Part shown: in pieces, positions 22,488 through 25,999 of the stretch
Layout of the letters: every line of letters begins with the position of its first letter
Numbering within the stretch: position 1 is the stretch's first letter
Assembly: GCA_013816405.1 (NCBI GenBank)
Contig: JACDEL010000020.1
Coordinates: forward strand, 1 to 40,842
From: Chloroflexota bacterium
Lineage (GTDB): Bacteria > Chloroflexota > Limnocylindria > QHBO01
Reading direction: 5' to 3'
DNA length: 40,842 bases
The notes under the pieces: model-generated
What the model saw: only the letters and a program-made list of their open reading frames with translations
Databases searched by the model: none
Told to the model about the DNA's origin: nothing
Made by a program: the position numbers and the translations under genes

Positions 22488-23093
22488 ATGAGCGATGCCG
22501 AGGCGCCCGCGCCGCGTCCCATGATCCGCGGCGAGAAGGTCTGGCTGCGCCCCAGCGAACCGTCCGACATCATCCAGGACTCGACCTATACAGGCGACGC
22601 CGAGGTCGGCCACTTCCTGGGAGCGACGACGCCGATGTCGAAGGCCGGCGCCGAGCGCTTCAGCGCAGAGATCTTCTCCCAGAGCCCGATGGACCCGAAC
22701 AGCTACGGGTACGCCATCTGCCTGCTGGGCAGCGAGGAGAGCATCGGCACCGTCTTCCTGCGCAACGTCGACAAGGTCAACGGCAGCGGGATCGTGGGCA
22801 TCTTCATCGGGGACCGCCGCTACCTGGGCCAGGGCTACGGGACCGATGCGCTCAACGCTCTCGTCGATCTCGGCTTCGGCGAGCTGCGGCTGGAGCGGAT
22901 CGAGCTCGAAGTCTTCGACTTCAACCAACGCGCCGTCCGCTCGTACCAGAAGGCGGGCTTCCAGACCGATGCCATCCAACGCCGCGCACGCTTCCATCGC
23001 GGTGCGCACCACGACGTGCACATCATGTCGATCCTTCGGGAGGATTGGCTGGCGATGCCCCGCAAGCGCAGCTGGGAGCTGGCCGGGCCCTAG
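22488..23093 (+). CDS. GNAT-family N-acetyltransferase (RimJ/RimL-like)
   Basis: A 201-residue acetyltransferase that would move an acetyl group from acetyl-CoA to an amine. The acetyl-CoA binding region reads RRYLGQGYGTDALNALV (about 111-127), followed by LRLERIELEVFDFNQRAVRSYQKAGF, the usual motif B of RimJ/RimL-type members. The N-terminus IRGEKVWLRP is also typical. The acceptor could be a ribosomal protein, a small-molecule amine or a drug. It is a single gene between divergent and convergent neighbours; its stop shares CTAG with the histidine kinase stop. Confidence 0.9.
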   Translation: MSDAEAPAPRPMIRGEKVWLRPSEPSDIIQDSTYTGDAEVGHFLGATTPMSKAGAERFSAEIFSQSPMDPNSYGYAICLLGSEESIGTVFLRNVDKVNGSGIVGIFIGDRRYLGQGYGTDALNALVDLGFGELRLERIELEVFDFNQRAVRSYQKAGFQTDAIQRRARFHRGAHHDVHIMSILREDWLAMPRKRSWELAGP

Positions 23094-24424
23094 CCCGCGA
23101 GTGGCAGGCCTATCGCGAAGGTCGTCCCGTCCGCGCCCGTGCGCTCGACCGCGATGCGGCCGCCGTTTGCGGCCAGGAGCTCCCGTGCGATGGTGAGGCC
23201 GATCCCGCTGCCGCTGCGCGGCTCCCCGGCGCCCCGCGCCTGGTCCGCCCGATAGAAGCGCTCGAAGATGTGTGCCAGGTCCTCCGGGGCGATCCCCGGG
23301 CCGGCGTCGGTGACACGGACCAGCGCCTCGGCGCCCGCCGCCTCGACGGCGACGTGCACAGTCGCTTCCCGGGGAGATTGCTGGGCAGCGTTGGCGAGGA
23401 CGTTGCGCAGCGCGCGCCCGACCTGGGTGGAGTCGACGTCTACCCTGAGCGAGGCCGGCGCCTCGGCAACCCGGATGTCGACCCCTCGCTCGCGGAAGAG
23501 CGGCACGATCGCTCGCTCGACCTCGGCCAGGAGCTCGACCAGCGAGATGACCTGGGGGCGGCGCTGCATGACGGCTGACTCGGCGTCGACCAGCTCGCCC
23601 AGCTGGAGGATCACGCCCGAGAGCGCCCCGGCAGCGGCACGGGCGCGATCGAGCTGTTCGCGATCCGCGGGCACCACCCCGTCGACCATCGCCTGCAGCT
23701 GCGACTCGAGGACTGTGGCCGGCGTCGCCAGGTCGTGCGCCATGTCGCTGGCGGCGCGCCGACGCAGCATCTCGGAGCGCTGGACTCGCGCCGCCATGGC
23801 ATTGAAGGCATCGGCCAGCTCGTTCGACTCCCGGTCAGGCCCGCCAGTGGCGCGGGCGTCGAGGTCGCCGTGGCCCAGCCGCCGCGCGGCGGCCGCCACT
23901 GCGTGGAGGGGGCGCGTCAGGCGCGAAGCGAGAACCAACGCGATCAGCCCGACGGCAAGGGTCGCCAGCAGGCCGGCGACGAGCAGGCTCAGGTTGAAGA
24001 CGCCCAGGAACGCGCGATCCGCGCGCGGCACGTCGATCCGCAGGGTTGCGCCTGACCCCGTGATCGGCTCCGAGAGGGACTCGGTCGAGACTCCAGGTGG
24101 CAGGCGTCCGAAGTCGACCAGGAGGTCGCCAGCGGGGCCGATCAGCTGCACATGCCCGCGCATGGTGTTCGCGACACGACGGAGCACGACCTCGACGCCG
24201 TGCATCGCCTTCGGCGCGTTCAGGTCAACGCCGGCAATCGCTCCGGCCACGACGGTGATGCGGTCACGCTCCGCCGCGCTCAGCTCGCGCTCCAGAGAAC
24301 CGCTGACGATGCGGTTCACTGCCAGGCCGGCGACCAGAAGCACAGCCAGCACGGCTGCCGAGAGGAGCAGCGCCAGCCGCAGGCCGAGCGGCTGGCCGCG
24401 GATTTCGCTCTGGCCGACGGTCAC
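23090..24424 (-). CDS. Sensor histidine kinase
   Basis: A 444-residue membrane sensor kinase. Helices at about 14-37 and 142-166 flank an extracytoplasmic sensing domain of roughly 105 residues with no recognised fold. A HAMP linker (about 167-219) leads to the HisKA helix with His 230 in an unusual box, AHDLATP, where most kinases have HELRTP. The ATPase domain has the N box (NVLANAAQQSP), G1 box (DAGPGIAPED) and G2 box (GSGIGLTIAREL). The start is GTG 24424, overlapping the response regulator stop as GTGA. It should phosphorylate the regulator encoded just upstream; the signal is unknown. Confidence 0.92.
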   Translation of the reverse strand: MTVGQSEIRGQPLGLRLALLLSAAVLAVLLVAGLAVNRIVSGSLERELSAAERDRITVVAGAIAGVDLNAPKAMHGVEVVLRRVANTMRGHVQLIGPAGDLLVDFGRLPPGVSTESLSEPITGSGATLRIDVPRADRAFLGVFNLSLLVAGLLATLAVGLIALVLASRLTRPLHAVAAAARRLGHGDLDARATGGPDRESNELADAFNAMAARVQRSEMLRRRAASDMAHDLATPATVLESQLQAMVDGVVPADREQLDRARAAAGALSGVILQLGELVDAESAVMQRRPQVISLVELLAEVERAIVPLFRERGVDIRVAEAPASLRVDVDSTQVGRALRNVLANAAQQSPREATVHVAVEAAGAEALVRVTDAGPGIAPEDLAHIFERFYRADQARGAGEPRSGSGIGLTIARELLAANGGRIAVERTGADGTTFAIGLPLAG

Positions 24425-25134
24425 GACGGATCCCTGTCCGCCACCAGCCGATACCCGGTCGAAGGGATCGTCTCGATCAGCCATGGATCGGTGGCGTCGT
24501 CGCCCAGCTTGCGCCGGAGGTTGGCGACGTGGACGTCGACGACCCGCTCATAGACCTCCCCTGGACGGCGCGCGACCGCCTCGAGCAGCTGTTCCCGGGC
24601 CAGGACCGCGCCTGGCCGTCGAGCGAGCGCGACGAGGAGGGCGGACTCCCCGGGCGTCAGCCGGCCACCCTCGCCGCCGGACAGCGTGTAGCGTCTCGAG
24701 CTCGGATCCAGTACCAGGCGCCCGGCCGCGAGCGAGATCATGGCCTCGGTCCCCTCGGCTGCGGCGGGCCGTGAACGCCGAAGGATGGCGGCCACGCGAG
24801 CGGTCAGCTCGTGGGGGTTGAACGGCTTGGCCAGGTAGTCGTCGGCCCCGAGGCGAAGCCCGGCGATGCGCTCGGCGTCGGAGCGCTTGGCACTGGTGAT
24901 CAGGATCGGGACGTCCGCCGCTTCGCGCAGGGCCTCGAGCACCGCCTCGCCCTGCATCCCGGGCAGCATCAGGTCCAGGACCACCAGGTCCGCTCCATCG
25001 GCCGCGAAGGCGGCGAGCGCTGCAGTGCCATCGCCGGCATCCGTCACGGCGTAGCCGGCTCGCTCGAGGTACAGTCGCAGCAGCCCGCGCAGCTGCGGCT
25101 CGTCCTCGACGATCAGGATTCTGGCGTGCACCAT
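24421..25134 (-). CDS. OmpR-family response regulator
   Basis: A 237-residue regulator. The receiver domain has the acidic pair ED (10-11), phospho-acceptor Asp 54 in VVLDLMLPG and Lys 103 in LAKPFNP. The C-terminal winged helix (about 140-232) has the OmpR/PhoB pattern, with VDVHVANLRRKLGD as recognition region and IETIPSTGYRL at the end. ATG 25134 follows a TAGCAT box by 6 bases, so the mRNA is probably leaderless. The 7-bp direct repeat at 25188-25205, in the divergent intergenic region, is a likely binding site. Confidence 0.95.
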   Translation of the reverse strand: MVHARILIVEDEPQLRGLLRLYLERAGYAVTDAGDGTAALAAFAADGADLVVLDLMLPGMQGEAVLEALREAADVPILITSAKRSDAERIAGLRLGADDYLAKPFNPHELTARVAAILRRSRPAAAEGTEAMISLAAGRLVLDPSSRRYTLSGGEGGRLTPGESALLVALARRPGAVLAREQLLEAVARRPGEVYERVVDVHVANLRRKLGDDATDPWLIETIPSTGYRLVADRDPS

Positions 25135-25140
25135 TTGCGC

Positions 25141-25146
25141 ATGCTA
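25141..25146 (-). promoter_or_regulatory. Candidate -10 box (TAGCAT), leaderless start of the response regulator
   Basis: On the minus strand TAGCAT ends 6 bases before ATG 25134. No Shine-Dalgarno fits in the gap. Confidence 0.5.
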
Positions 25147-25187
25147 GTGGCAGCCTGATTCAGAGGATGTGAAGACCGAGGGTTAGA

Positions 25188-25205
25188 TCTTGATGCGTTC
25201 TTGAT
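25188..25205 (+). promoter_or_regulatory. Direct repeat TCTTGAT-N4-TCTTGAT, likely OmpR-type operator
   Basis: TCTTGAT occurs at 25188-25194 and 25199-25205, an 11-base period, which is the spacing bound by tandem OmpR/PhoB winged-helix dimers. It sits 66 bases before the secreted protein start and 54 bases from the regulator start. No good -35 box follows, which fits an activator-dependent promoter for the secreted protein. Confidence 0.6.
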
Positions 25206-25270
25206 CGCCGGAGCCGATGCTCCGCAGAACCGAGATCGCAGCAAGCGACGGTTCCAACGAGGACCATCAC

Positions 25271-25999
25271 GTGAAGAACATCAAGACCCTGGGCATGGCC
25301 GGCGGCCTCGTGGCCGCGGCGCTCGTGGGTGGAACCCTGATCAATGCCGCGCTGGCGGCGCCCTCGTCGCCGAACCCGAACGCATCGGCGGCCAATCCCG
25401 CCGAGAAGGCTGCGTACTGCGACACCTGGCAGAAGACGTTCGCCGATCAGCTTGGCGTCTCCGTCAGTGACCTCCTCCCGGCCGCAAAGGCAGCGAGCAT
25501 CGCCGCCATCAATGCGGCAGTCGCCGCCGGGGACATGACTGCGGAGCGCGCGACTGCGCTGAAGGACGAGATCGCAGCCGCCGATGGCACCACTGCCTGC
25601 CGATTCTTCGGTCATCCGTTCGCGGGGGGCGGGAACGGTGGCAAGGCCCACTTCGGCGGTCCGTTGCTCAGCACCGCTGCCGGCGCCCTGGGCATGGATC
25701 CCGGCGCGCTCATGCAGGCGCTGCGGAACGGTGACTCGCTGCAGGACGTGGCGACCGCGCAGGGCAAGGACTACGCCGCCGTCAGCAAGGCGATTCACGA
25801 TGCCGCGAAGACCAAGCTGGACGCCGCCGTGGCCGATGGTCTCGACCAGGCGCGCGCCGACGAGATGCTCGCGCAGATCGACCAGGCCCTCGCTTCCGGC
25901 GACTTCTCGCAGCTCCATCCCGGCCGTGGCCACGGTGGCGGATTCCCCGGTCTTGGCGCCGACAAGCCCGACGCGTCGGAGGAGCCCTCCGCCAGCTGA
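25271..25999 (+). CDS. Secreted helical protein, probable target of the adjacent two-component system
   Basis: A 242-residue exported protein. GTG 25271 has a good ribosome-binding site (GAGGA, 25259-25263). A Sec signal peptide covers about residues 1-31, ending near ALAAPSS. Two Ala-rich helical blocks share a pattern: Leu-Gly, then a helix, then an AVA-G-DM-AERA-type helix (about 61-105 and 145-215). The second resembles a widespread actinobacterial/Chloroflexota repeat of unknown role. Two Cys residues flank the first block and could form a disulphide. The C-terminus is Gly/His/Pro-rich and ends in Ser/Ala. No catalytic motif is visible; a stress-sensing or envelope-protective role is only a guess. 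Confidence 0.85.
   Translation: MKNIKTLGMAGGLVAAALVGGTLINAALAAPSSPNPNASAANPAEKAAYCDTWQKTFADQLGVSVSDLLPAAKAASIAAINAAVAAGDMTAERATALKDEIAAADGTTACRFFGHPFAGGGNGGKAHFGGPLLSTAAGALGMDPGALMQALRNGDSLQDVATAQGKDYAAVSKAIHDAAKTKLDAAVADGLDQARADEMLAQIDQALASGDFSQLHPGRGHGGGFPGLGADKPDASEEPSAS

Follow-up and report, generated by a model that had tools for sequence, protein, structure and literature searches.

The described systems that come closest to the locus reported here are CpxRA-CpxP and ZraSR-ZraP of Escherichia coli and the PHO box bound by PhoB. The cpxP gene is oriented divergently. It encodes a small exported helical protein and neighbours the regulator gene, both genes belong to the regulon (PMC7657598), and CpxP inhibits CpxA (PMC4160245). 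The targets of ZraR are essentially its own operon and zraP (PMC7657598). The PHO box has been published as a 7-4-7 architecture (PMC4415409), and PhoB sites overlap the -35 position (PMC3348028).

Here we analysed a stretch of 40,842 nt from a Chloroflexota bacterium (GCA_013816405.1, contig JACDEL010000020.1, positions 1-40,842, forward strand), called the window below, in which, as in CpxRA-CpxP, a two-component regulator gene adjoins the gene of a small exported helical protein. The exported protein of the window is without detectable CpxP/Spy similarity in Pfam, PDB sequence or fold searches (the model pLDDT of 72.6 limits the fold test), and one locus is seen for its regulator, whereas CpxR has a broad regulon. 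The logic is the same as that of ZraSR-ZraP, a very small regulon consisting of the system and an exported accessory protein, but ZraR is a sigma-54 activator and the window regulator belongs to the OmpR family; sequence similarity between ZraP and the exported protein was not found. The operators resemble the PHO box in having two 7-base direct repeats 4 bases apart that replace the -35 box (PMC4415409, PMC3348028), but the half-site is TCTTSAY and not the PhoB consensus, and the regulator lies below the NCBIfam PhoB equivalog cut-off (171.5 against 296.2 bits). The system is ordinary in kind, an autoregulated OmpR-family system. What is less ordinary is that it appears nearly private, is mirror-built and has been retained in distant lineages alongside a family of exported proteins that is uncharacterised.

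RESULTS

The two genes diverge from a 136-base intergenic region (25135-25270). The regulator (24421-25134, minus strand, 237 aa, ATG at 25134) has a receiver and a Trans_reg_C domain, both over the Pfam cut-offs (PF00072, 96.6 bits; PF00486, 79.3 bits), which places it in the OmpR/PhoB family, and among the matches listed it is also below the NCBIfam cut-offs for every other named equivalog. The sensor histidine kinase is encoded on the same strand (23090-24484, ORF of 464 aa). HAMP and HATPase_c were matched in Pfam, the HisKA match is sub-threshold, and two predicted membrane helices flank a small alpha/beta extracytoplasmic domain, for which a fold search with the sensor model (pLDDT 74.7) gave weak PAS-like matches and no confident one (WalK, KinD, CusS; all E > 0.08). 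Counted from its first ATG, the kinase ORF has 64 bases in common with the end of the regulator ORF (24421-24484), and the true start of the kinase may be internal to the ORF. A plasmid search gave no match.

The exported helical protein (25271-25999, plus strand, 242 aa) has a signal-peptide-like N-terminus and two invariant cysteines, C50 and C110; its most likely start codon is the GTG at 25271. No Pfam family is over threshold for this protein (P0001), and neither PDB sequences nor a fold search gave it a noteworthy match. For PF10925 (DUF2680), a family without a described function, it scores 11.6 bits against a gathering cut-off of 25, but some of its relatives pass, namely an orthologue (L008, 28.1 bits) and a relative in the distant family f21 (L125, 25.4 bits), and the protein is probably distantly related to DUF2680. 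A literature search on DUF2680 and TCTTGA operators yielded nothing relevant. Of 400 genomes sampled from the phylum, 166 encode a relative at E <= 1e-12.

The earlier note had described a direct repeat, TCTTGAT-N4-TCTTGAT, between these two genes, and the repeat is located exactly as claimed (25188-25205, plus strand, TCTTGAT-GCGT-TCTTGAT). Its 7-4-7 layout with an 11-base period supports the proposed PhoB/OmpR-class architecture, making it a predicted operator, hereafter the forward operator. The remark that the exported-protein gene has no good -35 box upstream was likewise borne out, as there is no sigma-70-like -35/-10 pair in the intergenic region. By eye, a candidate weak -10 box, GATGCT (25216-25221, plus strand), follows 10 nt after the forward operator; in relatives its position is constant and its sequence variable, again judged by eye, and it is weaker than the -10 box of the regulator promoter. 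The genome search that the note had proposed returned a single exact copy of the repeat in the 2.5 Mb genome. Allowing two mismatches added three other places, and none was found with the reversed-pattern control.

Absence of the repeat upstream of orthologues had been named beforehand as one outcome that would refute the idea, and the comparison went the other way. In 13 of 15 loci the 190 nt upstream of the exported-protein gene contain the motif TCTT[GC]N-N5-TCTT[GC]A, where dinucleotide shuffles lead one to expect about 0.001 loci; the loci are mutually related, and such conservation counts are not independent. The 15 loci comprise genome G021, three loci of a second family of the class and the 11 family genomes whose upstream sequence was usable. 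The exceptions are G079, with a degenerate form only, and G021, with none.

A second predicted operator, overlooked in the earlier note, faces the regulator gene (TCTTCAC-ATCC-TCTGAAT, 25158-25175, minus strand). This mirror operator has the same 7-4-7 layout and 11-base period and lies 12 bp from the forward operator. It is followed after 11 nt by a -10 box, TAGCAT (25141-25146, minus strand), and because this box ends 6 nt before the ATG the regulator mRNA is probably leaderless. When orthologous upstream regions were aligned by eye, the mirror element was present at every locus with an adjacent regulator. A TA[CG][CG]AT box is found in 15 of 15 regulator loci. The mirror operator is found in 14 of these 15 promoters, and in all 14 the box follows at 10-11 nt, a distance that was not imposed, the operator patterns themselves having been composed after viewing the alignment and loci. 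In G086 there is no recognisable mirror site. As each operator stands 10-11 nt before its -10 box, it holds the -35 position of its promoter.

Comparison within the family links site, regulator and target in three ways. Of 22 family genomes, 11 encode the regulator orthologue together with the exported protein, eight have neither and three have only one (Fisher p 0.0015, uncorrected for relatedness); G017 has the regulator only, G004 and G021 the protein only, and the G004 gene is at a contig edge. In G007 an insertion separates the two genes by 7 kb on one contig; the forward operator is found upstream of the exported-protein gene, and the mirror operator has remained beside the regulator gene. 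Since each gene retains its own operator, the break fell between the two operators. In G021 an acetyltransferase, the exported protein and a luciferase-like gene are in unchanged order, and the regulator-kinase pair and the operator are absent. Taken as three natural experiments, the co-occurrence, G007 and G021 make the predicted link between site, regulator and target well supported. The earlier note had read the regulator as activator of the exported-protein gene. The assignment of the forward operator to the exported-protein promoter stands, given its retention in G007 and its loss in G021; what that reading lacked was the mirror operator of the regulator gene and the nearly private look of the unit in this family.

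The two-operator pattern was found at 20 places in the 22 family genomes, 16 of them in this region or its two halves and four elsewhere, and its reversed control at two places. Because motif counts elsewhere are near background, the system looks almost private, with a single dedicated target, and the regulon predicted by this motif looks close to a single locus. A wider regulon in the organism's own genome (G000) was considered because of a perfect motif around C68:13277-13295 (L019:1501-1518), upstream of a gene for a membrane zinc-peptidase-like protein. Its -10 distance differs from the usual one, there is no counterpart in the other family genomes, and it was treated as background.

Similar repeats were also seen beside KdpE-like regulators. 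In the same genome TTCTTGAGCCGATCTTGAG is found where a KdpE-like regulator gene ends (L004:1486-1520, G000:C53:19358), and in G010 ATCTTGAGCGCTTCTTGA lies near such a regulator (L035, G010:C392:3089). Both loci have TCTTGAG direct repeats, and APC-type permease genes adjoin. This suggests that the half-site is common to several OmpR-family regulators here; given the first of these repeats, TCTTGA is not a wholly specific half-site.

Outside the family, the divergent layout recurs at three loci of another family of the class (L048, L049, L052), whose regulators are 58-71% identical, and at L048 and L052 the triad of regulator, kinase and exported protein recurs together with the motif. In the distant family f21, the exported-protein gene is divergent from a regulator at nearly all loci read, often with the kinase visible. 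TCTTGA-N5-TCTTGA is present there in 18 of 18 intergenic regions, many of these loci being close relatives of each other, and is unique in two of seven genomes searched (7-9 Mb). The f21 regulator is about 40% identical to that of the window, its recognition region differs, and the operator is farther from the gene than in the window family. The f21 regulator may not be an orthologue of the window regulator, and the f21 triad may reflect either a single ancient unit or parts recruited more than once. At the phylum-level loci read outside f21, most relatives of the exported protein have no regulator within 1.5 kb.

DISCUSSION

We consider it likely that the regulator, through two back-to-back operators, activates its own operon and the exported-protein gene, and that the exported protein is the single dedicated target of a system that is almost private. 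In the mechanism that we propose, the regulator would be phosphorylated by the kinase encoded with it. By analogy with described OmpR-family systems, it would then bind each of the two PhoB/OmpR-type operators, one for each divergent promoter and each at the -35 place, as a head-to-tail dimer on two 7-base half-sites, and the bound regulator would recruit RNA polymerase to both promoters. Activation of the probably leaderless regulator-kinase operon would amplify that operon's own expression, and activation of the exported-protein gene would provide the one dedicated output, a protein predicted to act at the cell surface. Sequence comparison directly shows the predicted operators and how they are conserved, the constant spacing to the -10 boxes, the co-occurrence, separation and loss with the regulator, and motif counts near background elsewhere. 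Binding by this regulator and a dependence on phosphorylation are what the known systems would lead one to expect, and from the geometry we infer activation rather than repression. That the exported protein would be under the control of the neighbouring two-component system is backed by strong comparative evidence.

The same operators could also serve a regulator that represses one or both promoters, for instance by auto-repression of its own gene. OmpR-family regulators can repress, which puts such a mode within reach, a fair -10 box stands immediately downstream of the mirror operator, and given the unequal quality of the two -10 boxes the promoters could respond differently. However, both operators replace the -35 box at a spacing typical of class II activation, the intergenic region has no independent promoter match, and the exported-protein promoter offers a weak -10 only, which suggests that an activator is needed. 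We regard repression as unlikely.

It is more doubtful still that TCTTGA is a generic OmpR-family half-site and that another regulator, such as a KdpE-like one, controls the exported protein. The repeats beside KdpE-like regulators would fit, as would the use of TCTTGA-N5-TCTTGA in f21, whose regulator is merely 40% identical, and the many relatives of the exported protein that are unlinked to a regulator. Yet family genomes without this regulator have either no exported protein or, in G021, no operator, and pattern matches elsewhere are near background. It is very improbable that the forward repeat serves the regulator gene only and that the exported protein is no target: the 136-base intergenic region is common to both genes and the position in the window alone cannot decide, but in G007, where the regulator gene and its mirror operator are 7 kb away, the forward operator remains upstream of the exported-protein gene, and on this split locus we ruled the reading out. 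A functionless chance repeat, conceivable when merely two 7-base copies in the window are considered, is hardly worth entertaining and was discarded, as sequence, spacing and position are conserved across two class families against an expectation of 0.001 loci.

Feedback of the exported protein on the kinase in the manner of CpxP or ZraP is plausible by analogy. We looked for signs that the exported protein and the kinase sensor had co-evolved, and their co-divergence gave a partial correlation of 0.82 when the regulator was controlled for but of 0.08 when the kinase domain was. Because the signal vanishes once the kinase domain is controlled for, it lends no specific support to the kinase sensing the exported protein, and this line of evidence was set aside. 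We offer only tentatively, as a minority prospect, the broader proposal that this protein is the first representative of a group of secreted feedback partners of histidine kinases that extends through the phylum. It would then be an analogue of CpxP and ZraP that arose independently, closes a sensing loop and has stayed together with its regulator, its kinase and a TCTTGA-N5-TCTTGA operator in two or more distant lineages.

The locus provides a testable assignment of regulator, operator and target for a phylum with little experimental genetics, and it points to a widespread exported protein family to which no function is assigned. A system this close to private, with a single target, lends itself well to asking how an exported accessory protein serves its kinase.

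Several further arrangements were seen in the phylum. Among the regulator-unlinked relatives (L103-L123), several seem by eye to have other 11-base-period repeats upstream, followed by a -10-like box. In family f5 (L060, L061), the gene for a relative of the exported protein diverges from that of a 35%-identical regulator, and the repeats there take the form TCTTACC-N4-TCTTACC; a changed operator specificity is possible. In genome G279 (G279:C2, about 57.6 kb and 71.7 kb; L146:2262-2304, L132), a stretch bearing a tyrosine-recombinase gene parts the regulator from the exported-protein gene, and the same 43 bases, including the complete operator, occur at either end of this stretch, as though the operator had served the element for attachment.
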